The notes under the pieces are model-generated. The model saw nothing but the letters and a program-made list of their open reading frames with translations. It was not told the DNA's origin and searched no databases. This document shows, one piece after another, positions 8,133 to 30,035 of a stretch of DNA of 36,205 nucleotides (positions are counted from its first letter, which is position 1; each line of letters begins with the position of its first letter). Position numbers and translations under genes: made by a program. Source of the DNA: an uncultured Acidobacteriota bacterium (lineage in GTDB: Bacteria; Acidobacteriota; Blastocatellia; RBC074); the NCBI GenBank assembly GCA_903862855.1, contig CAIOZW010000088.1, positions 1-36,205 of the forward strand, given 5' to 3'.

Positions 8133-8187
8133 ATCATATCAGCTCAGGATCATCTCTGACTGTCGATGAGGGAGTTGAGGCTGAAAG

Positions 8188-8484: not shown

Positions 8485-8498
8485 CGATCAGGAGGAAT

Positions 8499-11694: not shown

Positions 11695-11718
11695 TCGACT
11701 GCCGGTCGATACGATCGT

Positions 11719-11751
11719 GGGGATGGGGTAACCGTCAGTTACTCCATCCCC
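11719..11751. terminator. Hairpin between convergent ABC genes
   Basis: GGGGATGG (11719-11726) pairs with CCATCCCC (11744-11751), and GTAAC (11728-11732) with GTTAC (11738-11742). A single G-T (wobble) pair lies between, and the loop is CGTCA. The 14-pair stem sits 24 bases after the ATPase stop and 7 bases before the stop of the minus-strand permease. An AT-rich ATTTAT follows on the plus strand only. It most likely ends transcription from both sides. Confidence 0.7.
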
Positions 11752-11758
11752 ATTTATC

Positions 11759-13195: not shown

Positions 13196-13201
13196 AAGTG
13201 G

Positions 13202-14623
13202 TTAGTCAACCTTCATTCGCCGGGCAAAGAGAATGGCCACGCCTAGAGATGTCAGACACCAGGTTGCCAGAATGGCCAGACTCGTCCGTTGCCGGATCAG
13301 CGCAATCCTGGTCGATGGAGCTTGATATCGAAATTCGTCGACTGTCTGCCAGAGGTCTGGTTGCGCCTGGTAGCTGAAGTCTTTCTGAACAGCGTTATAG
13401 GTCAGATCGTCGTTCATCTTTCGGATCAGCATCCGTCGATAGGACTCGGCCGCCGCTGCGAAATCCTGGTGATGAAACATATCTGTTCCTGCCAGCCCCA
13501 TCGAGAAGGACTGCATGGCCATCATCGGCGCCAGAAGACCCGTCCACCATTTCAATCGATTCTGCTGCTCAAAGCGGCTCCAGAGGTCTCCGTAGTGGCG
13601 ATCGAAGATGAGATTGCCGTGCTCCTCACTCTCCTGGAGAGAGAGACCGGCAAAGTTGATGGGCAGGGCCTCGACCCGGTCGACACCATATTGCTTCAAG
13701 ACTCTTTCACGTAGTGCGGTCGTTCTCTTATCCGCGCTGTCATGACCATCCGGTCCGCTCTGCATCTCACGATCGATGGTCTGCTGAAAACTGAAGGCGG
13801 AGGGGGTTGGATAAAGGCGGCGTCCGATATCGGCAACTGCCCGTGGCGCAATCACTCCGTTGATGACCCAGAACCCGAGAAGGAGGACGAGCGCCATCTG
13901 GGCTGAGCTGGCGCGGGCCGAGACAGTAAGACTCAGGCCGATAAAGAGCCCGAAATAGAGCAGGTAGCCAATGGACATCCAGGCGAGACGTGAGAGGCTC
14001 GCGCCCGGAAGCGCACCACCAGAGGCCAGAAGAAGGGCGCTCACCCCGATGATCGTCGCAGGAAGCAGCAGCAGCCCGAGTGCCCCGGAGACACCGAGTG
14101 CCTTACCCCAGACGAGATCACTCTGTCGAACTCCGACGCTGATCAACTGACGGAGCGTCCCCTGTTCACGCTCTCCGGCAAAGGTCGAGAAGGAGAGGAG
14201 AATAATGAGCAGCGGGATCAGCAGTTGCAGGACGGTCGAGGCTGTCAGCTCTCCAAACCTTTGCACGGCAGTTGAGTCCTGGGCCGGGCGATACTTAAAT
14301 TCGTTCTGTTTATGCGCTTCAAGCCAGACCGACTGACCTACAAATGAGTCGATACCACGATCGAGCATCGACGGAAGCATCCGGGGCTTGAAGGCGTAGA
14401 CACCGTAGTGGGCGGCCGAATGCGGATTCTTGGCCGGCTGGCGCAGCCACTGCTCGCGAGTCTCAGCCTGCGCCAGTTCGTGCTGCCGTTTCAGTTCACG
14501 ATAGTGCTGGCCACCCATAAGAAGTGAGGCGAGCAGTAGAACAAGGACGATGGCGGCGGCGAGACGGAATCGTCCATCACGCAGCATCTCGGTAAACTCC
14601 TTACGCGCAATAAGTTTGATCAT
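13202..14623 (-). CDS. ABC-2 permease, DUF3526 family (first of pair)
   Basis: This 473-residue inner-membrane protein has its first helix at about residues 19-37, an extracytoplasmic domain to about 150, then helices around the coupling motif TFAGEREQGTLRQLISVGV, and a last helix before an RRMKVD end. DUF3526 permeases occur in pairs with an ABC-2 ATPase, often beside TonB receptors; their cargo is unknown. I chose the ATG at 14623 because AGAGG lies 9 bases upstream and the start then matches its paralogue. An ATG at 14632 is too near that site, and the frame continuing to 14920 runs through a heptamer repeat and is unlikely to be translated. Confidence 0.86.
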   Translation of the reverse strand: MIKLIARKEFTEMLRDGRFRLAAAIVLVLLLASLLMGGQHYRELKRQHELAQAETREQWLRQPAKNPHSAAHYGVYAFKPRMLPSMLDRGIDSFVGQSVWLEAHKQNEFKYRPAQDSTAVQRFGELTASTVLQLLIPLLIILLSFSTFAGEREQGTLRQLISVGVRQSDLVWGKALGVSGALGLLLLPATIIGVSALLLASGGALPGASLSRLAWMSIGYLLYFGLFIGLSLTVSARASSAQMALVLLLGFWVINGVIAPRAVADIGRRLYPTPSAFSFQQTIDREMQSGPDGHDSADKRTTALRERVLKQYGVDRVEALPINFAGLSLQESEEHGNLIFDRHYGDLWSRFEQQNRLKWWTGLLAPMMAMQSFSMGLAGTDMFHHQDFAAAAESYRRMLIRKMNDDLTYNAVQKDFSYQAQPDLWQTVDEFRYQAPSTRIALIRQRTSLAILATWCLTSLGVAILFARRMKVD

Positions 14624-14641
14624 CTTTAGCATCCTCTCAGG

Positions 14642-14690
14642 CTCCAGGCTCCAGGCTCCAGGCTCCAGGGTCCAGGCTCCATGCTCCAGG
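14642..14690. repeat. Heptanucleotide tandem repeat (CTCCAGG)7
   Basis: Seven consecutive 7-base units read CTCCAGG four times, then GTCCAGG, CTCCATG and CTCCAGG. On the minus strand the unit is CCTGGAG, which contains the Shine-Dalgarno-like GGAG. The array ends about 19 bases before the ATG of the DUF3526 permease, so it lies in its leader. Copy number could vary by replication slippage. Confidence 0.85.
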
Positions 14691-14718
14691 CACCACCAGG
14701 AGCTTTGCGACGAAAGAT

Positions 14719-14766
14719 TCTGGTACTGATTACCAGAGTTGGATATTGGCGTAAGCCCATACGCCA
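14719..14766 (-). promoter_or_regulatory. Two consecutive hairpins in the permease leader
   Basis: TCTGGTA/TACCAGA (14719-14725 and 14731-14737, 5-base loop) and TGGCGTA/TACGCCA (14747-14753 and 14760-14766, 6-base loop) are perfect 7-pair inverted repeats, 9 bases apart. If transcription of the permease genes starts upstream of 14766 they lie in the 5' leader just before the heptamer array. They could be RNA hairpins or protein sites. Confidence 0.35.
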
Positions 14767-14924
14767 TCCGGTGGACTTGTTGATGGGTCTGATTCACAGA
14801 AAAAGTCCATGAATCTGACTTCAGTTGATATGACTTCAAATAACTTTCTGCAACACCAGCATCACTCAAATTCAGCCTGAAGGTGCAGGAAGAGCGCAGT
14901 GACCAACGCGAAAAAAGCATACTT

Positions 14925-14941: not shown

Positions 14942-15358
14942 TCGAAAGATTGGTGGCGAAAGCAATTTCACGACTGGTCAGTTATGTGGGGTCAGTTGTC
15001 GAAAAATGCAACCTGATGGTTTTTCGGTCTCGATTCTCTCGCCAGTGAGCCTGTCAGTTCGCCTCACTCCTCGTCAGGGTATCGACCGGCCCGTAAGAAA
15101 TTCCCGACACAGAATCAGAAACAGCACCCAACCCACTGATGGCTGAACGGAGACTGCTCAGCACGCCAGATCGCCCGTTCGTTGAGAAGTGGTCGATTGC
15201 TTCAGGTTCCCGGTAATAACATCACCTTTACACCTGAAACTGAACACCTTGCAGGCGATTCGGTTCGAATATTACCTGATCCATAAAGAGAAAGAGTATC
15301 TGAAGTGAGCTGAGAGCATTTCAGTCAAATACAAAAGAAGATGAGAGAGGGGCAAGAT

Positions 15359-18325
15359 ATGCGGAAATTTCACATTATGGTAATCACTTCATTCCTGGTG
15401 CTGTCAGTCTGCCTGACAGCCGCCCAGAATGTTTCAGGTACACTGTCGGGACTTGTTCTGGATACGCAGTCATCACCGATCGCCAATGCATCGATAGTGC
15501 TGACCGATGAGCGTCGTGACTGGCGTCGCGAGATCACCTCGGATGCCAATGGACAGTTTAGATTTACCGGACTGCTCCCGAGCAACTATCAGATTGAGGT
15601 TCGACAGACTGGTTTTTCGGACTATCGTCCCGGGAGTTCGCTACGTCTGCTGGCTGGAGAGACACCCTACCTGAGCATTACCCTGCGACCGGTCGGGGTT
15701 ACCGACTCCGTCGTCGTGACGGCCAACCTGGATGAGATGGCAAAGGCGCGGAGCAACTCCAGTCGAGGCGGTAACTTCAGCGAGACTGAGAATATCGACC
15801 TCCCGATGGTTGCCGGAGGGCAGGGACGCAACTACCGCACGCAGGTCTACCTGCTGCCGGGAGTGACACCATCAGCACAGCGGTCTTCGCACGCGCCATT
15901 CTCCATCAATGGACTGCGACCGGTCAACACGGTCAATGTCATGGTCGATGGGGCTGATTTCAATGATCCGCTGATCGGGATATTGAACGGTACCGGGCTC
16001 AGCGAGCAGCCAGTCAGTCAGGAAGTCCTTTCGACGACCGAGGTCCAGACCAACAATTACAAGGCGGAGTATGGTCGGGCGGCAGGTGGAACGATCAACC
16101 TTGTCACGCAGTCGGGAGCCAACACCTGGCACGGAAAGCTTTACAATTTTCACCGCAATGCGGCCTTCGATGCGTCTAATCCGATCTTCAATCGTAAGGC
16201 CCTCTTCCTTCGCAATCATTTTGGACTGGTCCTCAACGGCGCAATCATCAAGGATCGTCTCTTCTTCAATATCAATGGTGAGGGAGTTGGAGATCGGTCG
16301 GTCAATCTTCGTAACTCGGTCTTCACCTTCACGCCGCAGGAGCGCGCGACAGCGGTTCCGGCAGTGAGTGCACTGCTGTCCCATTATCCATTGCCGAATC
16401 TGGTCACGACCAGTCCAACCCAGCCGAATTTTGATCCAACGGTTCGACGGGCAAGGCAGGGTGGACTCTTCTACTTTGGCCGGCTCGACTATATCGTCAA
16501 TCAGACCAACCTGGTCAATTTCCGTTATACCAAGACCGCTTCGCAGCCGGTTGGAATCTTCCCATTCTTTGCTCAGGGAGCAGGTTTCTCATCGGGTAAT
16601 GGCAGTTATTCGGCCGCCTGGAATTCGACACCGTCGAGCCGGATTACCAATGAGATGCGCGCCTATTACACCTATCGATCCTCCAACTCGATTCCCGATT
16701 CTCCGCGACTGGGTGATCCGGCCGTCAATGGGACAGCGGGATTCATTACCGTCGCCGGAGCGGAACGGATTGGAAGTTTCTTTCGTGACTACACGCAGAT
16801 GAACAACTATCAGATGTCGAACGATACATCCTGGTCGGCAGGTGCTCACGGAATCAAGTTTGGCGCGGTGGTCAGATTGATCGAGGCTAACACGACCGCC
16901 AATACAAATTTTGACGGGGTAATGGTCTTTGCTTCGCGGGCCGATTTTCTGCGAGGGACGCCAGCCGTCTACACGAGAGCCTTCGGAGATCCGCGACTCG
17001 ATCAGCGGACCCGTGAGATGGGGCTCTACATTCAGGACGACTGGCGGGTCCGGTCGAATCTCCAGTTCAATGCGGGGCTGAGATATGAGGTCTATGGTAC
17101 GCCAAAGGATCGAAACGGTCGCGTGACCGCCAACTACGAAACCGACCAGAACAACCTGGCACCACGATTCGGATTTGCCTGGACACCTGGAAGACAGAGT
17201 GATCTGGTGGTTCGGGGAGGGGGTGGGATCTTCTTCACGCCTTTGCCAATGAACTATGTTGGTCAGTTACGATTTACTCCACCCAGAGTCCAGACATTCA
17301 CCTATTTCCGCCCGTCGCTCACCAATCTGACCGGAGGGGCAGGGGCACCCAGTTCCAACCGGACGATTACTTCGCCGGATATGGTTCAGCCTTATTCGCA
17401 GCAGTACAACCTGAGCATCGATTACCGGCTCTTCGGGAGCGACACGGTACTCAATGCCTCATATGTCGGGACAAGTGCGCGCCATCTTGGAATGACTCGC
17501 CTGCCAAACGGAGGATCACAATGGGCGGCGACGATCAATGGACAGCCGAATCCGCGGCCGCTTGCTCCGCAGTATGGAAACGCGATCATCACCCTGCTCG
17601 AAACTGGCGCCTCGTCCAACTATCACGGTCTACAGCTGGCCCTCACTGGAAGGCTTGCCAAAGGACTGATGATTCGCGGCTCTTACACCTGGTCAAGAGC
17701 CATGGATGATATCTCAACCGACAGTCAGAATTTTATCAGTGAAAGCCGCCGCCGGCTCGACTATGGGCCATCGGACTTCGATATTCGCCATAATTTCAAT
17801 ACGGCTTTGATGTGGGCGCTGCCGTTTGAGAGACGGGGCTTGCCGGGACATCTTCTGGGAGGATGGCAGGCTACGACCATCATCAGCCTGCGTTCATCGT
17901 TGCCATTCACGATACTGAGTGGAACGGCAACTCCGGATGGGGTCGCGGTCAATCGTCCAAGTCCGGCCGCGGGGGCACTGTTGCGTAATCCGAACAGCTT
18001 CGCTGCGTGGTCACTCGCTCCCGGGGTAACGATCAATCAGCTTATTCCTGGCTTTACCGGCAGCTTCAGCGCGATCACTCCCGTGGGGTCACTCGGTCGC
18101 AACACCGAGCGGGCCGATGGTTATGCGGAGGTCAGTTTTGGTCTTCACAAGGAGTTTGCTGTGACCGAGCGGGTTCGGCTGCAATTCAGGAGTGAAGTCT
18201 TTAACCTCTTCAATACGGTCAATTATCTAAGCTACACGACAAGCCTAGCCAGTCCGGCCTTCGGAGCGGCGCAGTCGGTCTATGGACAACGGACGATGCA
18301 ACTGGCGCTTCGATTGTCATTCTGA
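15359..18325 (+). CDS. Oar-like TonB-dependent outer-membrane receptor (first)
   Basis: This 988-residue outer-membrane protein has a signal peptide (cleavage probably after TAA near residue 22) and a carboxypeptidase-regulatory-like beta-sandwich (about 27-105, GTLSGLVLDTQSSPIANASI). A DSVVVTA segment and plug domain follow (FSINGLRPVNTVNVMVDGAD). The long 22-strand-type barrel has conserved TWSRAMDD and DFDIRHNFN strands and ends in aromatic ALRLSF, the usual assembly signal. Oar-type receptors take up large or unknown ligands with TonB energy. ATG 15359 has GAGAGGGG 6 bases upstream; ATG 15341 is the alternative. It heads a row of genes leading to the CobN-like chelatase, in the place of the HmuR receptor, so a metal-tetrapyrrole ligand is a reasonable guess. 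Confidence 0.9.
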   Translation: MRKFHIMVITSFLVLSVCLTAAQNVSGTLSGLVLDTQSSPIANASIVLTDERRDWRREITSDANGQFRFTGLLPSNYQIEVRQTGFSDYRPGSSLRLLAGETPYLSITLRPVGVTDSVVVTANLDEMAKARSNSSRGGNFSETENIDLPMVAGGQGRNYRTQVYLLPGVTPSAQRSSHAPFSINGLRPVNTVNVMVDGADFNDPLIGILNGTGLSEQPVSQEVLSTTEVQTNNYKAEYGRAAGGTINLVTQSGANTWHGKLYNFHRNAAFDASNPIFNRKALFLRNHFGLVLNGAIIKDRLFFNINGEGVGDRSVNLRNSVFTFTPQERATAVPAVSALLSHYPLPNLVTTSPTQPNFDPTVRRARQGGLFYFGRLDYIVNQTNLVNFRYTKTASQPVGIFPFFAQGAGFSSGNGSYSAAWNSTPSSRITNEMRAYYTYRSSNSIPDSPRLGDPAVNGTAGFITVAGAERIGSFFRDYTQMNNYQMSNDTSWSAGAHGIKFGAVVRLIEANTTANTNFDGVMVFASRADFLRGTPAVYTRAFGDPRLDQRTREMGLYIQDDWRVRSNLQFNAGLRYEVYGTPKDRNGRVTANYETDQNNLAPRFGFAWTPGRQSDLVVRGGGGIFFTPLPMNYVGQLRFTPPRVQTFTYFRPSLTNLTGGAGAPSSNRTITSPDMVQPYSQQYNLSIDYRLFGSDTVLNASYVGTSARHLGMTRLPNGGSQWAATINGQPNPRPLAPQYGNAIITLLETGASSNYHGLQLALTGRLAKGLMIRGSYTWSRAMDDISTDSQNFISESRRRLDYGPSDFDIRHNFNTALMWALPFERRGLPGHLLGGWQATTIISLRSSLPFTILSGTATPDGVAVNRPSPAAGALLRNPNSFAAWSLAPGVTINQLIPGFTGSFSAITPVGSLGRNTERADGYAEVSFGLHKEFAVTERVRLQFRSEVFNLFNTVNYLSYTTSLASPAFGAAQSVYGQRTMQLALRLSF

Positions 18326-18433
18326 ACAGGCAACACAGTCCAGATCACTTAATCAATCTCCGGGGTGGTATCGAGACGGACAAGGCGTTCGATGCCACCG
18401 CTGGACTTTAATGGTGGAGATGAAGGTTACCTT

Positions 18434-19672
18434 ATGCAACTGATGCTACTTCTGCTCTTCATTTGGCAGGGCGTGGGGATGAGCGTGACGGGCGGGTCCT
18501 GGCCGGGTTTTCGCGGTCAGGGAGACAGCCAGAGCAACGCTGACAATCTTCCGGTGGAATGGTCCGATACGAAGAACCTTGTCTGGGATGTTCCACTGCC
18601 GGGATATGGTCAGTCGTCGCCAGTAGTCTGGAAGAGGCGAGTCTTCGTGACCGCCATCGATGGTCCAAACAAGGAGCGGGCATATGTGATCTGCCACGAT
18701 CTGCGAAGCGGGCAGGAGTTATGGCGCCGGGTCGTCGGGACGACCGAAAAGGTCAAGGTCGGAAACATGGTCAGTCAGGCCGCGCCGACACCGGTTGTCG
18801 ATGATAAGAGAGTCTACGTCTTTTTTGAGACCGGAGACCTCTACGCCTTTGATCATCGGGGCCGACCGGTCTGGGAGCGGCAGATGACCCGTGATTACGG
18901 TGGAGTCAAGGGGCCACATGGGCTTGGCAGTTCGCTGGTATCGGACCGGGAGAATATCTTCCTCGCCATCTCCCATCTTGGCGCCTCATTCGTCATGGCG
19001 ATCAGCAAGCGCGATGGACAGACAGTCTGGAAGGCTGAACGTAAGTCGGGTATGGCGTGGGGAACGCCACTCCTGGTCAGGTCTGCTGGGCTTGTAGAGC
19101 TCATTGTCAGAGGTGGCGACGGAGTGACCAGCTACGATGCGAAGGATGGAAAGATCCTCTGGTGGGTGACGGGACTGAAAGGGGCGCCAATGCCTTCGCC
19201 AACCCTGGCAGGGAATCTGGTCATCGTCGGATCTGATCAGAAAGAGGGCAGCATGGCGATTCGTCTGGGTGGGAAAGGTGATGTTACCGCAACCCATATT
19301 GTCTGGCGACCGACCGATGCGACCGCGTATTTCAGTTCACCACTGGTTCATCGCGGGCAGGTCTACTTCGTCAGTAAGGCGGGAATTGCCTATTGTCTCG
19401 ATCTGGCGACGGGAAAGGAGCTCTGGCGGCAGCGTCTTGGCTCCGGTGAGTGCTGGGCTTCGCCACTCGCAGTTGGCGACCGGATCTATATCTTCAGCAA
19501 TGATGGAAAGACCTTTGTCCTTCGTGCCGGAAGTGCATATCAACAATTGGCAATCAATTCAATTAACGAGCTGGAACGTATCTATGGTGTCGCGGCAGTA
19601 GATGATGCACTGCTCCTGCGCTCGGGAAGGCGACTCATCAGACTCAGTGAGAAAAAGCCGAACCGGTCGTAA
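18434..19672 (+). CDS. Secreted PQQ-type beta-propeller protein
   Basis: This 412-residue protein has a signal peptide (MQLMLLLLFIWQGVGM...) and then repeating propeller strands of the PQQ/BamB type, such as CHDLRSGQELWRRV, YAFDHRGRPVWERQM, ISKRDGQTVWKAE, YDAKDGKILWWVT and LDLATGKELWRQRL. The first blade WPGFRGQGDSQSNADNLP is typical of large secreted propellers in Acidobacteriota and Planctomycetota. No lipobox cysteine or dehydrogenase motif is seen, so it is probably a periplasmic binding or scaffold protein rather than an enzyme. ATG 18434 has GAAGG 7 bases upstream; the frame continues to 18365 without a signal-like start. It lies 108 bases after the receptor and 52 before the chelatase. 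Confidence 0.86.
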   Translation: MQLMLLLLFIWQGVGMSVTGGSWPGFRGQGDSQSNADNLPVEWSDTKNLVWDVPLPGYGQSSPVVWKRRVFVTAIDGPNKERAYVICHDLRSGQELWRRVVGTTEKVKVGNMVSQAAPTPVVDDKRVYVFFETGDLYAFDHRGRPVWERQMTRDYGGVKGPHGLGSSLVSDRENIFLAISHLGASFVMAISKRDGQTVWKAERKSGMAWGTPLLVRSAGLVELIVRGGDGVTSYDAKDGKILWWVTGLKGAPMPSPTLAGNLVIVGSDQKEGSMAIRLGGKGDVTATHIVWRPTDATAYFSSPLVHRGQVYFVSKAGIAYCLDLATGKELWRQRLGSGECWASPLAVGDRIYIFSNDGKTFVLRAGSAYQQLAINSINELERIYGVAAVDDALLLRSGRRLIRLSEKKPNRS

Positions 19673-19724
19673 ATCCTCGTGTGGTGTGTTGACTGAGAGT
19701 GTGAAGGAGCAGGTTGAGAAGATC

Positions 19725-22700
19725 ATGAAAATACCTCGTTTGCCGAACTGGAAGAGACCCCGGCTGCCGGAGATGAGTCGAAAGCGCATTCTGTCGGGAG
19801 TCCTGTTGCTGGCCGGATTGTTGCTGGTGGCATTCCTTGGTTATCGATTCTATGCCCGGAATATCGCCCCAACCCGCATTGCCTTTGTCAATTATCCGGA
19901 ATTCAGTCTGGCGAGGATCGAGAAGGCGATTCCATCCGCTTTCATTCGGATCGACAATCTGCCGATAACCGAGCTGAGTCAGGCCCGGAAGTATCCAGCG
20001 GTCTTTGTCTTCAGTCGTGGATTGCAGCTCTCCCCGGAACAGTTTCAGGATCTGCAGAATGCCGGTTTCTCAGGGACGGCGATCTTCATGGAAGGAGCCA
20101 CCAATCTGAACCAGGATGTAACCAATCTGAGGGGTGGGGATCTGGATGCCGTCTCGAGTTACCTGAGATTTGGAGGAGGCCGGAATTACCGGAGCCTGCT
20201 GATCTATGTGCGCCGGATGATCGATCACAAGAAGTATTTTGCCGAGGTACCCCAATCTCCCTTTGAGATTCCCCAGGATGCATTCTTCCATCTTGAGGAG
20301 GAGGCTATCTTTCCCGAATACGCCAGTTTCAGTGAGCATGTCCGCACCAGAAGCCTATTCAAACCGGATGCCCCGACCGTGGCATTGATGACAAGTGTTC
20401 CCGGTCCATTCAATGCAAATCGGGAACACGTCGATACCTTCATCAGGGAGCTCACGGCACGCAACATCAACGTCGTACCGATAGCCGCCGCAACGAAGCG
20501 ACTCGATTTTCTGAAAGAGGTCAAACCGGATCTGGTGATTATGATGCCTCATGGCCGACTGACGCTGGGGCAGGGGGCAGAGGCAGAGGAGTGGATGCGG
20601 AGCCAGAACATTCCGATGCTTGTGCCGGTCAGTGTCTTTCAGGAGTATGACAAATGGTTGAAGGACAAGCAGGGTTTCAGTGGGGCACTGGCCTCGATGA
20701 GTATTGCCTTGCCAGAGATAGACGGCGGCATCGTTCCCTATGCAGTCATTGCCCAGTATCGCAATCAGGAAGGGCTTCTCGAGTTTCGGGCCATTCCTGA
20801 CCGCATGGCGAAGTTCTGTGATGCAGTCAGGCAGTGGCTGAACCTGAAGAAGATGGCGAATGGCGAGAAGAGAGTGGCCATCTATTATTTCAAGGGACCA
20901 GGCAACAATGCCCTGACGGCATCGAATCTCGAGATTGTTCCATCACTCTACAATATGCTGCGACGGATGCAGTCGGAAGGATACCGGATTGATAACCTGC
21001 CGGGGAGTGAGAAGGAGTTCCAGGATCTGCTGATGCGGCGTGGTCCGGTTCTCGGGCCTTATGCGAAGGGTGCATTCGATGAATTCGTCAGATCGGGTCT
21101 GCCCGAACTGGTCAATGTTCGAGACTATAAGCGCTGGGTCGAAAAGGATCTGCCAAGAGAGAGTTATGATGCCGTAGTCGAGAAGTATGGTCAGGCGCCG
21201 GGTGAGTACATGGGCTGGGCCAGTGATGGACAGGACTATCTTGCTGTCACCCGGGTTGAGTTCGGCAATGTCGTGCTTTTGCCGCAGCCCCTGCCGGCCA
21301 TAGGTGGAAACACCTTCCAGCTTGTTCACGGGGCCAAAGTCGCGCCCGCCCATCCGTATATTGCTTCATACCTCTGGACGCGGAATGCATTCAAGGCCGA
21401 TGCGATCATTCACTTTGGAACTCACGGCTCACTCGAGTTTACACCAGGCAAACAGATGGCCCAGTCCCAGTATGACTGGTCAGACGCACTGATCGGGACG
21501 ACACCCCATTTCTACATCTACACCATCAGCAATGTTGGTGAAGCGATCATCGCCAAACGGCGCAGCTACACGACGACACTCTCACATCTTACTCCTGCCT
21601 TCACCGAGAGTGAGCTGTATGGCGATCTCAAGCAGTTGCAGGATAAGTTTCAGGCATACCAGAACGCGAGTGGTGAGTTAAGGCAAGAGTATGCTCGCAG
21701 TATCATTGCGCTGACGGATAAGACCGGCATCACCAGGGATCTCAACCTGCAGATTACCCGGCCTGCAGATCTTGAAGGAGAGGCACTGGGCAGGCTCGAG
21801 AATCACCTTGAGGAGATCGCGGCCGAGAAGATTACCGCCGGTCTCTACACGCTTGGCAACGGGTATGATTCATCGAAGACCGAGACGACAGTGACCCTTA
21901 TGGCGATTGACCGGGTAGCCGAGGGGATGGCGGAGCTGGATCTTATCGCGGGCAAGCTGTCGACAGGCCAGCGCGATGACCGGAAGCTCTTTGATCGTCG
22001 TTACCGGCAGCCGGCCAAACTCCTGATCGGCAAGGTTCTGAAAGGGCAGATGAGCGTCGATGCGGCTCTCCTGCAGATGATAGGGAGAGAGAATCTCACC
22101 TTTGCCGAGGAGTGGGTGAAGGCGTCGCGTCGACCGTCGGATGATGACATAGTGCGGGGATTTATCGGGATGGCGGGGGCACGGGGTGTTGGAGCGCCTG
22201 ACGACAAGGTGGATCGAGGTGGTGTTTCGCCAGCCGAGATCGAGCAGCTCCGCGAGCTGGTGGTGCGGATAATTTCTGATCCAAAGAAGCGCGAGTTCAT
22301 CGCCGGTCTCCGCTCCGAACAGCAGTTTCGGATGACGTCAGGTCTGCTCGATCCGGCGACACTCGAGAGGGCACGGACCGTCGCACGGGCCATTCCGCGC
22401 ATGGCCGAGGCGATCAAGATTGGACTTGAGCCCGATGTCAACCAGCTGCTGCGGATGATGCAGCGCGAACCACTTCGCAACAAGACCTTCGAACTGCTGG
22501 ATGACAAGGAGCTTGTGGTACAGGTCGAAGCGGAGCGAAAGCGGCAGTTGGAGGAGGTTCGACGACTTTGTCAGGCGCCGGAAAAGCTGGCCGCCTTGAA
22601 GCTGGTCAGGGACGGGTCCGCCGTGCGATCGACTGCTGATCTGCCCACCCTGCGTGGACAGGTTGAACAGGTCAGGTTTCTGCAGGGCAACTATGACAAT

Positions 22701-24485
22701 TGTGCAAATCTTCGACAGGTAACCAGACTGCAGATCGGTGGGGCCATCGATCAGCTCTCCCGGCAGATCGTCCGGCTTGAGGATCGCGATCGCGAGCGTT
22801 CACGGGCGATTTTTGCGGCACGTGGCAGTATCGAGAATATCGGCAGATCAAAGACTCTGCTTCAGCAAAGCGGTCGAGCCGAACTGGATAGCGTGATCAA
22901 CGGTCTCAATGGTGGCTTCATTGCGCCATCTTCAGGTGGAGATCCGGTGGTCAATCCTCTGACCATACCGACCGGCAGAAATCTCTACAGTATCGATGCC
23001 GAGAAGACACCATCGGTTGAGGCGTGGCGGGTTGGCAAACAGCTTGCCGACCAACTGCTCCAGCAGCATATGCAGACGCATCAGCACTATCCGAAAAAGG
23101 TTGCGGTGACTCTCTGGCCATCCGATTTTATCGAGACGGAAGGTGCGCTGGTGGCAGAGGTTCTCTATCTGCTTGGGGTCGAGCCGGTTCGTGACCCGTT
23201 CGGGCGGGTTCTCGATATCCGTGTGACGCCAACGGCCGAACTGCAGCGACCGCGGGTCGATGTCGTTGTTCAGACAGCCGGACAGTTTCGGGATCTTGCG
23301 GCGTCGAGGCTATACCTGATCAACAAGGCTGTCCGGATGGTCGCTGGTCTGAATGAAGCGGGTCCCTATGAAAACTACGTCCGAAACGGCACGGTTCAGG
23401 CAGAGGAGGCGCTCAGGGAGAAGGGGCTTTCACCGGTTGAAGCCCGTCAGATCTCGACGCAGCGGGTCTTTGGTGGTGTCAATGGCAGTTACGGGACCCA
23501 GATCATGGGCATGGTCGAGAATGGTAACAAATGGGAGAAGGAGGAGGAGGTTGCGCAGACCTACCTCAACAACATGGGTGAGCTCTACGACGAGGGTGAA
23601 GGGTGGGGGCTTTTCCGCTCCGGGGCCTTTGAGGTGATGCTGCGCGACACCGAGGCTGTCATCCAGCCGCGTGAGAGCAATACCTGGGGGCCACTCTCAC
23701 TCGATCACGTCTATGAGTTCATGGGTGGAGTCAACATGGCAGTCCGCTATGTTACCGGCAAGGATCCGGACGCCTATTTCAATGATTTTCGCAATCCCGG
23801 TCAGGCCCGGGTACAGGAGGTCAAAGAAGCGATCTCGGTCGAGTCCCGAACCACGCTGCTCAATCCAAAGTATATTGCCGAGTATATGAAGGGCGGAGCC
23901 TCATCAGCCGAAAAGTTTGCCGAGACTTTCCGCAACACATATGGGTGGGATGTCATGAAGCCGGAGGCGATCGAGGAGAAGTTGTGGAGCGATCTGCACC
24001 AGGTCTATGTCAAAGACAACCTCAATCTTGGGGTGAAGGAATGGTTCAGCAAAGAGAATCCAGCTGCGCTGCAGGAGATGACAGCGGTCATGCTCGAGAC
24101 GGTTCGCAAGGGATACTGGAAGGCAAGTGCTGAAGAGATACAGGAGATGGTTCAGCTCCACACCCAGTTGATCAGGGATTACAAACCTGGCTGCAGCGAG
24201 TTTGTCTGCGGCAACGAGAAGTTGCAGAGCTACATTAGTGAGCGGCTGGGCAGTGATGAGCGGCAGGCTTACGAAGGAGCAATTGCGCAGGTGCGAGTTG
24301 GAGATAATCAGAACAGAGGTATCGTGCTTGAAAAGGAGAGGAATGAACGAGTGCAACCAATGCCGCCGTTACTCAATCTCTTTCGTTCCGGCAGGATCGT
24401 TGCCGTGACGACGCTTCTGTTTCTGGCCGTGCTGGTGACGCTCTTCGTCTGGTGGCGGCGGCGGGCGGGGCGATCCCAGCTCTGA
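19725..24485 (+). CDS. Membrane-anchored CobN/HmuS-family tetrapyrrole metal chelatase
   Basis: This 1586-residue protein has an N-terminal helix (about 22-40) preceded by many Lys/Arg, a CobN/ChlH-type core, and a C-terminal helix (about 1558-1577) followed by RRRAGR. Core motifs include HFGTHGSLEFTPGKQ (563-577), AKRRSYTTTLSHLTP, GRNLYSIDAEKTPS (near 1085), NGSYGTQIMGMVENGNKW and RTTLLNPKYI. A long charged helical insertion (about 700-1060) separates the halves. CobN inserts cobalt in B12 synthesis with ATP-driven CobS-CobT; none is here. The neighbours match hmuSTUV order, and HmuS is described as acting on haem, so metal removal is the better guess. Both membrane flanks are positive, which puts the core in the periplasm. 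ATG 19725 has AAGGAG 15 bases upstream; the frame reaches 19602 inside the previous gene and GTG 19701 is possible. Confidence 0.9.
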   Translation: MKIPRLPNWKRPRLPEMSRKRILSGVLLLAGLLLVAFLGYRFYARNIAPTRIAFVNYPEFSLARIEKAIPSAFIRIDNLPITELSQARKYPAVFVFSRGLQLSPEQFQDLQNAGFSGTAIFMEGATNLNQDVTNLRGGDLDAVSSYLRFGGGRNYRSLLIYVRRMIDHKKYFAEVPQSPFEIPQDAFFHLEEEAIFPEYASFSEHVRTRSLFKPDAPTVALMTSVPGPFNANREHVDTFIRELTARNINVVPIAAATKRLDFLKEVKPDLVIMMPHGRLTLGQGAEAEEWMRSQNIPMLVPVSVFQEYDKWLKDKQGFSGALASMSIALPEIDGGIVPYAVIAQYRNQEGLLEFRAIPDRMAKFCDAVRQWLNLKKMANGEKRVAIYYFKGPGNNALTASNLEIVPSLYNMLRRMQSEGYRIDNLPGSEKEFQDLLMRRGPVLGPYAKGAFDEFVRSGLPELVNVRDYKRWVEKDLPRESYDAVVEKYGQAPGEYMGWASDGQDYLAVTRVEFGNVVLLPQPLPAIGGNTFQLVHGAKVAPAHPYIASYLWTRNAFKADAIIHFGTHGSLEFTPGKQMAQSQYDWSDALIGTTPHFYIYTISNVGEAIIAKRRSYTTTLSHLTPAFTESELYGDLKQLQDKFQAYQNASGELRQEYARSIIALTDKTGITRDLNLQITRPADLEGEALGRLENHLEEIAAEKITAGLYTLGNGYDSSKTETTVTLMAIDRVAEGMAELDLIAGKLSTGQRDDRKLFDRRYRQPAKLLIGKVLKGQMSVDAALLQMIGRENLTFAEEWVKASRRPSDDDIVRGFIGMAGARGVGAPDDKVDRGGVSPAEIEQLRELVVRIISDPKKREFIAGLRSEQQFRMTSGLLDPATLERARTVARAIPRMAEAIKIGLEPDVNQLLRMMQREPLRNKTFELLDDKELVVQVEAERKRQLEEVRRLCQAPEKLAALKLVRDGSAVRSTADLPTLRGQVEQVRFLQGNYDNCANLRQVTRLQIGGAIDQLSRQIVRLEDRDRERSRAIFAARGSIENIGRSKTLLQQSGRAELDSVINGLNGGFIAPSSGGDPVVNPLTIPTGRNLYSIDAEKTPSVEAWRVGKQLADQLLQQHMQTHQHYPKKVAVTLWPSDFIETEGALVAEVLYLLGVEPVRDPFGRVLDIRVTPTAELQRPRVDVVVQTAGQFRDLAASRLYLINKAVRMVAGLNEAGPYENYVRNGTVQAEEALREKGLSPVEARQISTQRVFGGVNGSYGTQIMGMVENGNKWEKEEEVAQTYLNNMGELYDEGEGWGLFRSGAFEVMLRDTEAVIQPRESNTWGPLSLDHVYEFMGGVNMAVRYVTGKDPDAYFNDFRNPGQARVQEVKEAISVESRTTLLNPKYIAEYMKGGASSAEKFAETFRNTYGWDVMKPEAIEEKLWSDLHQVYVKDNLNLGVKEWFSKENPAALQEMTAVMLETVRKGYWKASAEEIQEMVQLHTQLIRDYKPGCSEFVCGNEKLQSYISERLGSDERQAYEGAIAQVRVGDNQNRGIVLEKERNERVQPMPPLLNLFRSGRIVAVTTLLFLAVLVTLFVWWRRRAGRSQL

Positions 24486-24494
24486 TCCAGCTGG

Positions 24495-25241
24495 ATGGCA
24501 GGGACTCTTCAGATCGCAGAATTGCAGGGGGGCGAGGTCGTGACAGAAATCTGGCTGGCAGGGGCGATGTTGCTGGTGCTGCTGGCAATTATTCGGTGCA
24601 GCCTCCACTCCGGGTGGTGGCGGTTGGCTCTCCCCGCCCTTCTGGCGGGGGGATGGATCTATCTCACCTTCGATGAGATCAGCCGGAAGAGTCTGGCGCA
24701 GATCTACGCTCCATTGACCAAGCTCGATCTGCTGGTGCTGATTCTCATGGTTCCAATCGTTGAGAGTGTGACTGGTATCAGGGCGGCGGTACGATTGATC
24801 GAGCCAGGTTATCGGGCAGGCTGGTGGCAGCAGATAGTCGAAATCCTTCCACCATTGAGCCTCTTTGCCGGACTGCGTCTGCTTATTGCGCAAGCGTTAC
24901 AATTCAATCCGCCGGGGGTCGATTTTGAGACCTTTGGGATGGGGCTGGTGATCAGTTTCACTCTTGCCATCCTTCTTCTGCCAGTGGTTCTGCAGTGGCT
25001 CCTGCCGCCACTGGTATGGCGCATCGAGCTCTATCTTCTGTTGCGCGTAATCCTTCTGCTGGCGATTTTGGCAGGTTATGGCTTCGTGACATTGCAACCG
25101 GTTTCGCCGCCCGATGCGAGCTTCTCCTGGCGCGGAACCGGCTTGGTCTTTGGTGGAATGTGCTTGATCGCCCTGTTTGGGGCCGTCTCAGTCCGGATAG
25201 TCGAACGCATCAGACGGGCAATAGGGATTAACACTAACTAA
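24495..25241 (+). CDS. HmuT-like polytopic membrane protein
   Basis: This is a very hydrophobic protein of up to 248 residues with about six membrane helices and no catalytic motif that I recognise. Polar loops carry IYAPLTKLD and EPGYRAGWWQQI. It follows the chelatase gene by 9 bases and precedes the ExbB-like gene, the place occupied in hmu loci by HmuT, a predicted membrane protein of unknown function. It could be a channel, a permease for the released metal or macrocycle, or an anchor for the chelatase; sequence does not decide. The ATG at 24495 has only a weak ribosome site. A GTG at 24540 with GGGCGAGG just upstream gives a 233-residue product and may be the true start. Confidence 0.75.
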   Translation: MAGTLQIAELQGGEVVTEIWLAGAMLLVLLAIIRCSLHSGWWRLALPALLAGGWIYLTFDEISRKSLAQIYAPLTKLDLLVLILMVPIVESVTGIRAAVRLIEPGYRAGWWQQIVEILPPLSLFAGLRLLIAQALQFNPPGVDFETFGMGLVISFTLAILLLPVVLQWLLPPLVWRIELYLLLRVILLLAILAGYGFVTLQPVSPPDASFSWRGTGLVFGGMCLIALFGAVSVRIVERIRRAIGINTN

Positions 25242-25368
25242 ATATAAATAGCAGATATCGGAACACGTCCCTGATTCGTGGCGATTCCAGCGTGCAGTGT
25301 TCCAATGTTACCTGTTTCGATTTAGCTGAAGGTCGATGATCAAGGCCCTTTGTGGTGACTGAACAAAT
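25242..25368 (+). promoter_or_regulatory. Gap inside the chelatase operon with an inverted repeat
   Basis: This 127-base gap is the largest between genes from the chelatase gene to the DUF2149 gene and is AT-rich at its start (AATATAAATAGC). GGAACAC (25260-25266) and GTGTTCC (25297-25303) are perfectly complementary around a 30-base loop. It could hold an internal promoter or a stem that adjusts expression of the channel genes relative to the chelatase. No T-tract terminator follows the stem. Confidence 0.3.
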
Positions 25369-25959
25369 ATGAACTACGTCAATCAATTCTTGAACTTCAT
25401 CTCGGATGGTTTGTTGCTACCTGCCGTAACTATCGAAATCATGCTTCTCTTCAGTGCCTTGTGGGCAGCAGGGATGTTTGGACGAGATCTCTGGCAGCGA
25501 CTGCGCGGCGCTGGCGCAGTCCGGGAGTTCATTCAACTGGCACCACTCGATCATGACTGGGCCGCCTCGATCGGGAAGATGCCGGTCAGTCGCTTCAGGG
25601 AGGTCATTCAGTCGTTGCTTGACACCAGTAATGATCGCCGCGTTGCGACATACTGTCTCAATCAGTTTGAGAATGAGTGCCAGAGGGAGCTCGATCGCGC
25701 GCGGATGCTGACACGACTCGGACCGATCCTCGGGCTGATGGGAACGTTGATTCCAAAGGGCCACGCCCTCGGGCAGCTTGCTCTCGGTGATGTCTCGGCA
25801 ATGACGCAGAATCTGCAGGTTGCCTTTGCCAACACCGTCGTCGGTCTCTTTATTGGGGCAGTCGGATTTGTGATCCAGCAGGGGAGACAGCGCTGGTACA
25901 AACAGGAACTGGATACGCTCGATTATCTTTATAGTCTTTTATTTGAGGAGAAGAGATGA
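25369..25959 (+). CDS. MotA/TolQ/ExbB-family proton-channel protein (HmuU-like)
   Basis: This 196-residue inner-membrane protein has one N-terminal helix (about 15-38), a cytoplasmic stretch of about 70 residues, and two C-terminal helices. The family core is RLGPILGLMGTLIPKGHAL followed by QNLQVAFANTVVGLFIGAVGFVI, which in ExbB/TolQ lines the proton path around the partner helix. ExbB-type pentamers convert the proton gradient into force, with ExbD as partner. The next gene, overlapping by 4 bases, encodes a protein with ExbD-like topology. They may energise the TonB receptor, the chelatase, or both. Confidence 0.85.
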   Translation: MNYVNQFLNFISDGLLLPAVTIEIMLLFSALWAAGMFGRDLWQRLRGAGAVREFIQLAPLDHDWAASIGKMPVSRFREVIQSLLDTSNDRRVATYCLNQFENECQRELDRARMLTRLGPILGLMGTLIPKGHALGQLALGDVSAMTQNLQVAFANTVVGLFIGAVGFVIQQGRQRWYKQELDTLDYLYSLLFEEKR

Positions 25960-26285
25960 GACGTCGTCGTGAAAGATTCGGTGAAGAGTCGTCAGATCCG
26001 CTCGATTCACTGGCCAACCTCTTTGAGCTGGCCATGGTTCTGGCAGTAGCACTGTTGACCATGATTGCCATACGCTTCAACATGACGGAGATGTTCAGCG
26101 ACAAGGATTTCACCATGGTCAAGAATCCGGGCAAGGCCGACATGGAGATTATCACCAAATCAGGCGAGCGGATTGAGAAATACAAGGCTGCCGATAAAGG
26201 TAACGGAGAGCGCCAGGGAAATGGCAAGCGAGTCGGTACCGCCTATCAGCTCGAGAATGGTGAGATTATCTACGTTCCGGAATGA
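25956..26285 (+). CDS. DUF2149 single-pass protein (HmuV-like), possible ExbD analogue
   Basis: This 109-residue protein has an arginine-rich N-terminus, the DUF2149 signature DPLDSLANLFE (14-24) and one membrane helix (about 25-39), then a small hydrophilic domain ending in GTAYQLENGEIIYVPE. The positive N-terminus puts this domain in the periplasm, as in ExbD, TolR and MotB. Those proteins carry an essential aspartate near the helix start; D14, D17 and E24 are candidates here. Its ATG overlaps the stop of the ExbB-like gene (ATGA), so the two are translated together. It ends the chelatase operon. Confidence 0.85.
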   Translation: MRRRRERFGEESSDPLDSLANLFELAMVLAVALLTMIAIRFNMTEMFSDKDFTMVKNPGKADMEIITKSGERIEKYKAADKGNGERQGNGKRVGTAYQLENGEIIYVPE

Positions 26286-26696
26286 TTCTGCCCAGGCACA
26301 CGACAGGTATTAACTCATCCCCAGTGAGGAGTCACTCTGTTCGGAGCAAGCCCACTCTTTTTCCCGGGTTGCCATCCAGCCGGCGAAATTTCCCAAGGAC
26401 TGATCCTTAATCAGTGCTGCGTTTCGTCGCGGTCTGGCGAACAGGCGTAGATGCCGGAGTGGTGGATCAATGCCTACCTCAGGTTGGCAGACTCGAATGA
26501 ATAGTGATTGATTCTGTCGATAAATAAAAGTCCATTCACTTTAGCAGTCCTTCCATTCATCAGTTCAATTCTACCTCCGGTTGGATTCTGGTTCGTGTCC
26601 CTCCAGTTCTCTGTTATCCAAGACCTTTTAAGAGACGATAGTCTTTTGATGGGTCGGCAGAAATCATGGAATGGAAAATCATGGAACGGAGAAGAT
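26286..26696 (+). other. Intergenic leader of the second receptor gene
   Basis: About 410 bases precede the second receptor. A 6-pair inverted repeat ACTGAT/ATCAGT (26399-26404 and 26410-26415) and a palindrome GAAATTTC (26385-26392) stand out. Near the 3' end a 15-base unit is imperfectly duplicated (26661-26690, AAATCATGGAATGGA then AAATCATGGAACGGA); GGAGAAG at 26688-26694 is the ribosome site. The receptor frame stays open back to a TTG at 26508, but that part looks unlike a signal peptide. No known riboswitch was recognised. Confidence 0.45.
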
Positions 26697-29600
26697 ATGC
26701 ATTTATTATTTGAAATCGCCCCTTTAGGCAGAGTGGGCAGAAAGGTGATGGTAGGATCCATTCTGGGAGTCCTGCTGATTCTTAACGTAGCGGGAGCCTC
26801 AACGTCATCCATCCGCGGAGTGGTAAGGGACGCGAATGGAGCGGTGATAGCCGGGGCCGAGGTGACGGTGACCAATGATTCGACCAACAGTCGGCGGCGG
26901 GTAGTGACAGACGCGGGTGGTCGTTATGTGGTTCCAGACCTGGCTCCGGGTGTCTATACGATCGATGTCAGTCGGAGTGGGTTTCAGCGCACGACGAGAA
27001 GGCAGGTGGTGTTGAATGTGGCTGGCGGCTATACAGAGGACTTCTCGCTGCAGGTTGGGTCGCTCAATGATCGTCTGGTGGTAGATGGGAACAGCTCGCT
27101 GGTCAACCGTGAGTCTGCGGCGGTGGCGACCGTCATTGACCGGCAGTTTGTCGCCAATCTTCCACTCAATGGGCGGAGCTTTCAGGTGTTGATGGAGCTG
27201 ACGCCGGGAGTAAGCCTCGCCAGATCAACCATCCAGAGTACAGGACAGTTTTCGGTCAATGGTCAGCGAACAAACGCCAACTATTTCATGGTAGACGGGG
27301 TCGGCGCCAATTTCGGGGCGAGTCTGACGGCGCAGAGTTATCAGCAGGGGAGCGGAACCCAGCCGGCACTATCGGTTCTGGGAGGTTTCAACAATCTGGT
27401 CTCGGTCGATGCCCTGCAGGAGTTTCGTGTTCAGACCTCGGGGTATGATGCACAGTATGGTCGTTCCCCGGGCGCACAGGTCTCGATCACGACCCGTTCG
27501 GGCGGGAATGAGTTTACGGGGACGCTCTTCAACTACTTTCGGAATGAGGCGCTCGACGCGGCGGACTTCTTCGACAAGATCAACCGGGTCCCAAAACGCA
27601 AGCTGCGTCAGAACGACTTTGGAGGAGTGCTCGGTGGTCCGATCCGGCTGCCGCGCCAGGTCTTTGGGCCGATCGGGTATGATGGACGTGATCGGACATT
27701 CTTCTTCGCCTCATATGAGCAGTTGCGACTGGTGCAGCCTCAGGCGGGTCTCTTCCGCGCGCGCGTCCCGTCGCTGGCGGCCCGGGCCGCGGCCACCGGA
27801 GCAATGAGATCGGTTCTTAACGCCTTCCCACTGCCCAATGCACCGCGAGTGGCAGCAGATGGTGATCCGGCAGACAGCGAGCGCTACATTGCCGGACTCT
27901 CCTATCCATCGCGACTGACGACGTTTGGTGTCCGCTTTGATCACCGCTTCAGTGACAACCTGACAGTCTTTGGGCGGTTCAATCTTTCACCGTCGGAGCA
28001 GTTCTTCAGATCTTTTCCCAGCCAGGAGAATCAGTTCCGGAAAGATACGGAGACCTACACGGGCGGGATGACCTGGACGATCAATCCGCGTCTGGTGAGC
28101 GATCTGCGATTGAACTTCAGCCGTGATCGCGGGGCCTTCGATTTTGTCGGTGTCGCGGCGGACGGGGCGGTGTTGCCATCCGACAACCTGCTCTTTCCAT
28201 CTTTTGCACCGCGGGCAGTGACAGCCGTCAGCCTGCAGACAGTTCCGGGTAACTTCAGTGCCGGGTTGAGCGCTGCCAATCTGACGCAAGGCAAGACTCT
28301 CGGACAGCAGCAGCGCCAGTTCAACATCGTCGAGAATCTGACCCACGTTGATGGAAGTCATGAGTACAGGTTCGGGGTGGATTATCGACATCTTCGCCCG
28401 CTGCAGGATACGCGTTCGTTGAGTATCAGCTACAATTTTGCGACCGATGCTTCGCGGCGAACCGGAGTGCCAACGGCGATCTCGCTGCAGGCCTTTGCCC
28501 CGGTGACCGACTTCATCGTGCGCAATGCGTCATTCTATGTTCAGGATGCCTGGCGTCTTGGGCGGCGGGCGACGCTGACCAGCGGGGTGCGCTATGAGGT
28601 CAATCCGCCACTGGATGGTAAGCGACTCCCGTTCCAGATCGATGGGCTGGAGAATCCACTGACGGCGACTCTCGCCCGGCCGGGAACACGCCAGTGGCGA
28701 ACGCGCTGGAACAACTTCGCGCCACGTTTCGGACTGGCCTGGACAGTCTCCGAGAAGTTCGATCTGGTGCTTCGTGGTGGTGTTGGTATCTTCTATGACA
28801 CGGGGATGGGAACAGCGCTGCGCGGCTACAGCAGCTTTCCGTACAACACGACGCTCAATATTACCAACCCGGCCCAGCTCAGATTTCCGGCAGTCGAGTC
28901 CGACATCCAGCCGCCTCCATTTGCCGATACGCTGCCGCCGCCTTACAACTCGAACTTCTTTGTCTTTGATCGAAATCTGCAACTGCCCTACACCCGTCAG
29001 TGGAACGTGACGATGGAGAAGGGGATTGGCCGAAACAGTGTCGTGTCGATCAGCTATGTTGCGGCGGCCGGTCGAAGGCTGTTGCGGGCCGAGCAGTTGC
29101 AGAACTTCAATGCCGCTTTTGTGCAGCAGCGTTTCGGACTTGAGGCAAGACCGCTGGTGGTGATCAACCCGGCGATCTTCGGGCCGAATCTTACGGCGAC
29201 AGCACCGGTGGGAGGGTCGACAGTCTCGGTGACGCGCAATGCTTCAAACTCAGATTATCAGTCATTTCAGGCCCAGTTTCGGCGACGGCTCTCGCGTGGG
29301 CTGCAGGCGCAGGTCTCCTACACCTGGTCAAAATCGATGGATGATGTCTCGGATGAGACGATCACCGGCATTCCAACCGACCGGATCGATCTGCGGCTGG
29401 AGCGGGGGCGGTCAGATTTTGATATCCGACACAACTTCATCACGGCGCTGACATACGACATTCCGATCGGCAGAGTCCTTGGAGGATACGGGCTGACGCG
29501 GTCTCTGTTTGGTGGCTGGTCGGTCGATGCCATCGGGCGGATGCGTTCGGCACTTCCATTCAATGCGATCTCGCAGGTCTTCGATCCGCTCAATATCGGG

Positions 29601-30035
29601 ACGACAAGGCGGCTCGATTTGAAGCCGGGTGTTCCGATCTACCTTGATGACTCGGCCGCACCGGGTGGTCGAAGGCTCAACCCGAACGCCTTTGCCGTTC
29701 CGACTGCCGGGAGGCAGGGAACCCTGCAACGCAATTTTCTGCGTGGTTTTGCCGCCCGCCAGCTCGACCTTTCGGTCCGTCGCCAGTTCAATCTGACAGA
29801 GAAGTGGAGAGTCCAGTTCCGCACCGAGTTCTTCAATCTGACCAATACGCCAAACTTTGGTGATCCTGCCGCATCCTTTGGATTCGCCACCTTCGGTTAT
29901 GCACAAAATATGCTGGGGCGCGGATTGAGCGGATCGACCGGGGCGACGCAGACCTCTCCAAGTCCCGGTTTCAACTCGCTCTACCAGATTGGTGGTCCAC
30001 GTTCCATCCAGTTTTCACTGAAGATTCTCAACTGA
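26697..30035 (+). CDS. Oar-like TonB-dependent outer-membrane receptor (second)
   Basis: This 1112-residue outer-membrane protein has an N-terminal hydrophobic signal (MVGSILGVLLILNVAGA, about 18-34), a carboxypeptidase-regulatory-like domain (about 37-125, SSIRGVVRDANGAVIAGAEV), a plug (QFSVNGQRTNANYFMVDGVG) and a barrel with SYTWSKSMDD and DFDIRHNFI strands near the C-terminus. It is paralogous to the receptor at 15359, but longer and clearly diverged. The last residues FSLKILN end in Asn rather than the usual aromatic. I chose ATG 26697 with GGAGAAG just upstream; ATG 26748 would give a shorter signal. It is 411 bases from the chelatase operon and may have its own promoter. Ligand unknown. 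Confidence 0.9.
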   Translation: MHLLFEIAPLGRVGRKVMVGSILGVLLILNVAGASTSSIRGVVRDANGAVIAGAEVTVTNDSTNSRRRVVTDAGGRYVVPDLAPGVYTIDVSRSGFQRTTRRQVVLNVAGGYTEDFSLQVGSLNDRLVVDGNSSLVNRESAAVATVIDRQFVANLPLNGRSFQVLMELTPGVSLARSTIQSTGQFSVNGQRTNANYFMVDGVGANFGASLTAQSYQQGSGTQPALSVLGGFNNLVSVDALQEFRVQTSGYDAQYGRSPGAQVSITTRSGGNEFTGTLFNYFRNEALDAADFFDKINRVPKRKLRQNDFGGVLGGPIRLPRQVFGPIGYDGRDRTFFFASYEQLRLVQPQAGLFRARVPSLAARAAATGAMRSVLNAFPLPNAPRVAADGDPADSERYIAGLSYPSRLTTFGVRFDHRFSDNLTVFGRFNLSPSEQFFRSFPSQENQFRKDTETYTGGMTWTINPRLVSDLRLNFSRDRGAFDFVGVAADGAVLPSDNLLFPSFAPRAVTAVSLQTVPGNFSAGLSAANLTQGKTLGQQQRQFNIVENLTHVDGSHEYRFGVDYRHLRPLQDTRSLSISYNFATDASRRTGVPTAISLQAFAPVTDFIVRNASFYVQDAWRLGRRATLTSGVRYEVNPPLDGKRLPFQIDGLENPLTATLARPGTRQWRTRWNNFAPRFGLAWTVSEKFDLVLRGGVGIFYDTGMGTALRGYSSFPYNTTLNITNPAQLRFPAVESDIQPPPFADTLPPPYNSNFFVFDRNLQLPYTRQWNVTMEKGIGRNSVVSISYVAAAGRRLLRAEQLQNFNAAFVQQRFGLEARPLVVINPAIFGPNLTATAPVGGSTVSVTRNASNSDYQSFQAQFRRRLSRGLQAQVSYTWSKSMDDVSDETITGIPTDRIDLRLERGRSDFDIRHNFITALTYDIPIGRVLGGYGLTRSLFGGWSVDAIGRMRSALPFNAISQVFDPLNIGTTRRLDLKPGVPIYLDDSAAPGGRRLNPNAFAVPTAGRQGTLQRNFLRGFAARQLDLSVRRQFNLTEKWRVQFRTEFFNLTNTPNFGDPAASFGFATFGYAQNMLGRGLSGSTGATQTSPSPGFNSLYQIGGPRSIQFSLKILN

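Follow-up and report, generated by a model that had tools for sequence, protein, structure and literature searches.

The window analysed here, a 36,205-nt stretch of DNA from an uncultured Acidobacteriota bacterium, contains a contiguous run of four genes that we refer to as S, T, U and V, together with a BamB-like gene and two genes for TonB-dependent receptor-like proteins:

15341–18325, + strand: TonB-dependent receptor-like protein upstream of S (CarboxypepD_reg domain and barrel)
18365–19672, + strand: BamB/PQQ-like beta-propeller protein upstream of S (Pfam PQQ_2, E = 1.9e-28)
19602–24485, + strand: S, hmuS-like chelatase (CobN/ChlH superfamily) with a called length of 1627 aa (Pfam CobN-Mg_chel, E = 4.9e-301)
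24495–25241, + strand: T, hmuT-like protein with six hydrophobic segments (6-TM), weakly similar by phmmer to Bacteroides/Prevotella HmuT
25369–25959, + strand: U, hmuU-like protein of the ExbB/MotA/TolQ family (Pfam MotA_ExbB, E = 2.9e-09, above the cut-off)
25956–26285, + strand: V, hmuV-like DUF2149 protein (Pfam DUF2149, E = 1.2e-29)
26508–30035, + strand: second TonB-dependent receptor-like protein, downstream of V (Pfam OMP_b-brl_4, E = 4.8e-155)

Open reading frames and Pfam matches agree with the first-pass annotation, which had described a chelatase gene followed by genes for a polytopic protein, an ExbB-like protein and, overlapping the latter by 4 bp, a DUF2149 protein. Each of the four proteins could be placed in its family, T through its weak similarity to Bacteroidota HmuT, as the Pfam scan assigned it no family. 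The start of S was probably called too early: its first 41 codons lie mostly on top of the upstream BamB-like gene, so the real start is probably Met-42 (19725). Contig C12 of the same genome carries a second complete S–T–U–V cluster (L009, 525–14018), again with a BamB-like gene and flanked by the same kinds of receptor; the upstream receptor-like gene of the window has a partial counterpart there, and the downstream receptor is 94% identical to its counterpart. Because the proteins of the two copies are 72–92% identical with dN/dS values of 0.04–0.19 (0.056 for U and 0.041 for V), all four open reading frames are real genes under purifying selection.

Upstream in the window lies a metal-handling island (3871–9857) encoding a cation-efflux protein, CbiM, CbiQ, an ABC ATPase and a CobW-family protein; such cobalt-type importer, CobW-family and cation-efflux genes would be in keeping with a non-iron metal. 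An ABC ATPase gene accompanied by two DUF3526 permease genes lies near S–T–U–V both in the window (10969–14920) and in Aureibacter of the Bacteroidota (L013, 16266–19884), and this set is possibly an exporter tied to the S–T–U–V pathway. No cobalamin riboswitch was detected in the window or in the C12 stretch scanned.

The solved structure nearest to S is HmuS (9d26, 1246 bits, as against 404 for ChlH and 367 for CobN), the tree places S in a clade with the HmuS proteins of Bacteroides, Prevotella and Aureibacter with a support of 100, and the S–T–U–V order matches that of Bacteroidota hmu loci. Judged by these comparisons, the locus is an acidobacterial form of hmuSTUV, a known operon type that had been missed when the locus was presented as a new way to power a chelatase. 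The following residues and segments bear on the function of S and V:

19788–19844, + strand: N-terminal membrane helix of S, residues 63–81 (hydropathy)
21423–21425, + strand: His-608 of S, aligned with the catalytic His-538 of Bacteroides thetaiotaomicron HmuS, in the motif HFGTHG (pattern HFG(T/A)HG)
23706–23708, + strand: His-1369 of S in LSLDHVYEFMGG, aligned with B. thetaiotaomicron His-1209, part of the HmuS-family signature
24318–24335, + strand: GIVLEK, residues 1573–1578 of S, degenerate juxtamembrane motif and proposed docking segment
24396–24452, + strand: C-terminal membrane helix of S, residues 1599–1617, proposed contact with the ExbB/DUF2149 motor
26025–26027, + strand: Glu-24 of V, acid at the start of the membrane helix, D or E in 66/66 relatives

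The segment around His-1369 reproduces the LSLDHxxEFMGG hallmark, including the positions of His-1209 and Glu-1212. Of the two HmuS site-1 heme ligands, S keeps the equivalent of His-254 and lacks Met-79, which is Arg in the window protein, in its C12 copy and in Aureibacter, and the position of Gln-1198 is Glu. The methionine-rich insertion of domain IV is also absent, with 4 Met in 203 residues as against 21 in 80 in P. nigrescens. As Met-79 and this insertion belong to the HmuS hallmarks (PMC12583661), S is best named HmuS-like, a name under which heme would not be assumed as the substrate. Its likely reaction would be metal removal rather than insertion, since the closest characterised homologue removes metal. 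With a helix at each end, S is predicted to be extracytoplasmic and membrane-anchored at both ends, and not cytoplasmic like the CobN and ChlH large subunits.

V has one membrane helix (residues 21–39) and a small domain modelled as beta at low confidence; the models of V (mean pLDDT 66) and T (pLDDT 52) are both poor, each protein having been folded alone and not from an alignment of relatives. Three acids of V had been proposed as conserved, of which only Glu-24 stands, as the position of Asp-14 is occupied by D, N or S and that of Asp-17 is not conserved. A single helix with an invariant acid is what would be expected of a proton-coupled stator partner. V has no Pfam ExbD match, and hhalign against ExbD gave a probability of 1%; we therefore dropped the assignment of V as a proven ExbD and limit the claim to topology and the conserved acid. 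T holds the place of DUF2162, a 'predicted transporter', in methanogens and Trichlorobacter. In the open-licence literature, DUF2149 is named in five papers and DUF2162 in none, and no experiment testing U or V came to light; no DUF2149 was found in the viral contigs scanned.

The first-pass annotation had started from the dependence of CobN and ChlH on AAA+ partners, and had suggested that a pair such as U–V might supply proton-gradient energy instead. The window indeed encodes no AAA+ partner, and the genome (97.4% complete), searched specifically for ChlI and CobS, returned generic best matches of 24.8 and 22.3 bits, respectively, far below the cut-offs, so that neither stands out. Because S lies outside the cytoplasm, no cytoplasmic ATPase could act on it. 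A CobN-like piece on contig C108 was considered as a partner of S and dropped: a single open frame there (L010, 1–2940) runs on from a penicillin-acylase-like protein, labelled so from reading the sequence rather than by family search, into a CobN/BchH-like piece, and the contig is probably chimeric. HmuS of gut Bacteroides is a de-chelatase that pulls iron from heme outside the cytoplasm; the purified B. thetaiotaomicron protein converts heme to PPIX with NADH, without ATP, a gradient or partners, and HmuS in membrane fractions makes PPIX without ATP (PMC12583661). The reaction is limited to 1–2 turnovers, as its authors point out (PMC12583661). The need for an AAA+ partner thus fails for HmuS, and so does a strict requirement of the chemistry for a proton gradient, as purified HmuS was active with no gradient and no U–V; activity of a purified chelatase without its membrane partners, which the first-pass annotation had named as evidence against its idea, is on record for this homologue, within the 1–2 turnovers. 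That limit leaves room for a partner.

Which protein the U–V pair serves can be approached through organisms that have the pair and lack TonB receptors, such as methanogens, whose cells are without an outer membrane. DUF2149 was found in 64 of 197 archaeal genomes of the phylum to which a Methanosarcina belongs, and a TonB-receptor plug in 0 of the 120 genomes of that phylum sampled. The archaeal counts, like those for topology below, come from related sequences that are not independent and so overstate the number of events: among 45 loci, each 15 kb or longer, of methanogens and relatives (one of them a Methanobrevibacter belonging to a different phylum), U adjoins V in all 45 and T is present in 42, a CobN-like gene is found on the strand of the pair and no more than 9 kb away in 38, and a full-length CobN-like protein with a C-terminal helix is encoded nearby in 36. 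In the first set tested, all 17 readable pair-linked chelatases end in a C-terminal membrane helix, as against 0 of 14 unlinked CobN/BchH proteins, the annotated ones of which have AAA/VWA, cob or bch genes as neighbours. An archaeal CobN survey that was not selected for linkage gave the same picture, with DUF2149 in 12/12 genomes with a C-terminally anchored CobN and an anchored CobN in 0/14 readable CobN-bearing, DUF2149-free genomes. Among the archaea sampled, no TonB receptor was found that the pair could serve, and the simplest common client of U–V is S. The proposal that the pair is a chelatase motor thus stands in one part, as methanogen linkage and the C-terminal helix associate the pair with an extracytoplasmic chelatase and not with TonB, and falls in the other, that the chemistry needs the pair. 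On this comparative evidence, the link of motor to chelatase is now better supported than the published TonB assignment; proton-driven chemistry is not supported. HmuV-like sequences have been listed in Methanomicrobia without the conclusion that the pair serves the chelatase (PMC10100974), and two BtuS proteins were reported in M. barkeri, which was said to lack the entire operon (PMC10846266).

The catalytic His is missing from 6/49 readable linked chelatases (Methanoculleus, Methanocalculus and Methanosarcina types), and chelation is therefore not the sole job of the module. These six proteins, to judge from their sequences, could not work like HmuS and may be binding proteins rather than enzymes. 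Their loci (L157, L158, L159, L160, L246 and L263) encode an FSIFS-like sequence in place of the superfamily THG histidine; a further CobN-like protein of L160 retains this histidine.

If S is the client, its tail is a candidate contact site. The linker preceding the C-terminal helix is poorly conserved except for a motif G-x-(V/E)-(M/L)-x-(E/K), usually with V-x ahead of it; the strict pattern, written after inspection of the tails, occurs in 31/49 of them, as against 0.9 on average and at most 4 in shuffles. The motif is degenerate across the HmuS clade, and GIVLEK of the window scores weakly by weight matrix. Some ExbB/DUF2149 pairs have no CobN nearby. Among non-CobN neighbours, the strict motif was found in 6/21 proteins adjacent to the pair versus 2/37 distant ones (p = 0.02); the weight matrix gave p = 0.22 overall, and every distant protein scored below the three clear motif-like tails, of which two belong to one family. 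Taken together, these comparisons are suggestive of a docking motif in the neighbours. Two unrelated kinds of C-terminally anchored protein beside pairs have similar ends, namely a Peripla_BP_2 protein with the tail VAGHPMEP, a setting found in two genomes, and a 1966-residue CARDB/BamB-like protein with the tail VNGYPMGE. Where no anchored CobN adjoins the pair, its neighbours include different extracytoplasmic proteins that have a C-terminal helix, as in L316 (9049–10680), L340 (6488–8119), L279 (1937–7837), L327 (5863–7809) and L334 (10212–15179). Several of these neighbours end in V-x-G-x-x-M/F-like tails, and the motor might have further clients among them. Next to two archaeal pairs lie S-layer proteins without the motif, which were set aside as probably unrelated.

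Bacterial loci vary in content. On a Comamonadaceae plasmid, the 5′ end of a U–V–S set bears a cobalamin riboswitch and the nearest 9 kb contain no receptor, and in several Proteobacteria with U–V–S no T is annotated. Cobalamin riboswitches lie beside ExbB/DUF2149/CobN clusters in Comamonadaceae (L021, 8040–8288), Trichlorobacter (L016, 5960–6426) and Azospirillum (L020, 9312–9529), which suggests corrinoid or cobalt substrates there. In Runella (L017, 1740–15998), a receptor/ExbB/DUF2149/CobN cluster lies within a hydrogenase-maturation (hyp) gene set, a setting pointing to nickel. A Marinobacter CobN-like protein (L179, 3903–8105) has an apparent N-terminal signal, no C-terminal helix and no ExbB/DUF2149 genes nearby, and groups with a methanogen protein on a long branch.

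Gene content, clade, topology, conserved residues and linkage in organisms without TonB receptors are the observations on which we base a working model of the HmuSTUV module, to which we assign a probability of about 0.58: S removes the metal from a tetrapyrrole, and U–V is a proton motor dedicated to S that cycles it. In this model, S, a periplasmic, doubly anchored homologue of class-I chelatases, probably takes the metal off an imported metallo-tetrapyrrole, and its histidines H608 and H1369 would protonate the ring. U together with V, with the invariant acid in its membrane helix, would form a proton motor for S and not for the TonB receptors. The extracytoplasmic domain or the membrane helix of V would grip S at its C-terminal helix and juxtamembrane segment, and the S tail would serve as the handle of the motor. 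The motor would most likely cycle the conformation of S, through opening of the cleft, release of the metal-free ring or hand-off of metal or ring to T, and probably does not power the chemical step itself. The direction of the reaction in the source organism, the contact between S and V, the action of the motor and the role of T are what we infer in this model.

It is unlikely, in our estimation, that U–V is instead a second dedicated ExbB/ExbD engine that works with a TonB from elsewhere and energises the neighbouring outer-membrane receptor or receptors. For the hmu operon, this role is the one given in the literature (PMC12583661 and PMC10100974), P. aeruginosa PA1924 has been read likewise (PMC4542158), and receptors flank the cluster both in the window and in Bacteroidota. 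However, U–V is frequent among archaea that yielded no TonB-receptor plug, where it lies beside an anchored CobN, T. lovleyi encodes U–V and a separate, complete ExbB–ExbD–TonB set within one cluster, and the source genome has ExbD and TonB genes of its own besides U–V.

A role of T–U–V as a proton-driven inner-membrane transporter for a metal, a tetrapyrrole or another chelate, with S as a delivering and sometimes catalytic receptor, would accommodate the DUF2162 annotation, the Peripla_BP_2-type neighbour with an S-like C-tail in two genomes and the six linked S proteins without the catalytic His, for which it would be favoured. For the module in general we consider it improbable, because T is not annotated in several U–V–S Proteobacteria and iron released in B. 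fragilis is taken up by FeoAB. To our knowledge, moreover, ExbB-type proteins are not transport paths for metal or tetrapyrrole solutes. Least credible is that the proton gradient relayed by ExbB/DUF2149 is the required energy for the (de)chelation step itself: in its favour, the extracytoplasmic topology of S excludes a cytoplasmic ATPase partner and the genome shows no outstanding ChlI or CobS match, but HmuS makes PPIX both purified and in membrane fractions, with neither gradient nor ATP.

Extended beyond this locus, the dedicated-motor model would make ExbB-like/DUF2149 pairs a widespread motor class of bacteria and archaea that acts through the C-terminal helix and motif of its clients, with CobN-superfamily chelatases as the main clients and as a proton-driven counterpart of the AAA+-driven CobN/ChlH; we advance this tentatively, at somewhat less than even odds. 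Energised class-I chelatases are known only in combination with AAA+ ATPases, and the known partners of ExbB-type proton-channel pairs are limited to TonB, Tol, flagella and a small number of others. If U–V drives S, a further kind of client, archaea included, would be added for such pairs, and the roles of HmuU and HmuV in gut and oral Bacteroidota and of PA1924 and PA1925 in Pseudomonas would need revision. A motor acting on S would also be a reason why purified HmuS halts after 1–2 turnovers, and the acid of V and the C-tail of S would provide a single testable site for oxygen-free metal release from tetrapyrroles. The locus type itself, hmuSTUV, was already known; with the comparative evidence, the role of HmuUV can be put to a direct test.

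The window cluster resembles hmuYRSTUV of P. gingivalis and B. thetaiotaomicron in the order S–T–U–V, the overlap of U and V and the double anchoring of S, and S shares with Bacteroidota HmuS the HFGTHG and LSLDHxxEFMGG motifs, the His-254 equivalent and TonB receptors nearby. Unlike the Bacteroidota loci, the window has a BamB-like protein upstream and receptors of the CarboxypepD_reg/OMP_b-brl_4 type instead of HmuR, and no HmuY was Pfam-identified among the neighbours scanned around the cluster; an hmu arrangement without HmuY has been recorded for 385 species (PMC10100974). S itself departs from Bacteroidota HmuS in the Arg at Met-79, the Glu at Gln-1198 and the absent methionine-rich insertion. 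The methanogen T–U–V–S loci (DUF2162, ExbB-like, DUF2149 and CobN-like) contain the same four-gene module with both anchors and the juxtamembrane motif, but have no outer-membrane receptors, and their S proteins fall in other clades, some without the catalytic His. P. aeruginosa PA1922–PA1925, by published description, likewise brings together receptor, CobN-like, proton-channel and DUF2149 genes, but is Zur-regulated (zinc), with no T mentioned (PMC4542158 and PMC9431628). CobNST and BchHID/ChlHID share with S the large-subunit family and the superfamily THG His, whereas their large subunits lack a C-terminal helix and work with AAA+ partners in the cytoplasm, and S is extracytoplasmic with an ExbB/DUF2149 pair. 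As in ExbB–ExbD, TolQ–TolR and MotA–MotB, U belongs to the MotA/TolQ/ExbB family and V has one helix with an invariant acid; V is not recognisable as an ExbD by profile, and the proposed client of U–V, unlike those of these three pairs, is a chelatase.
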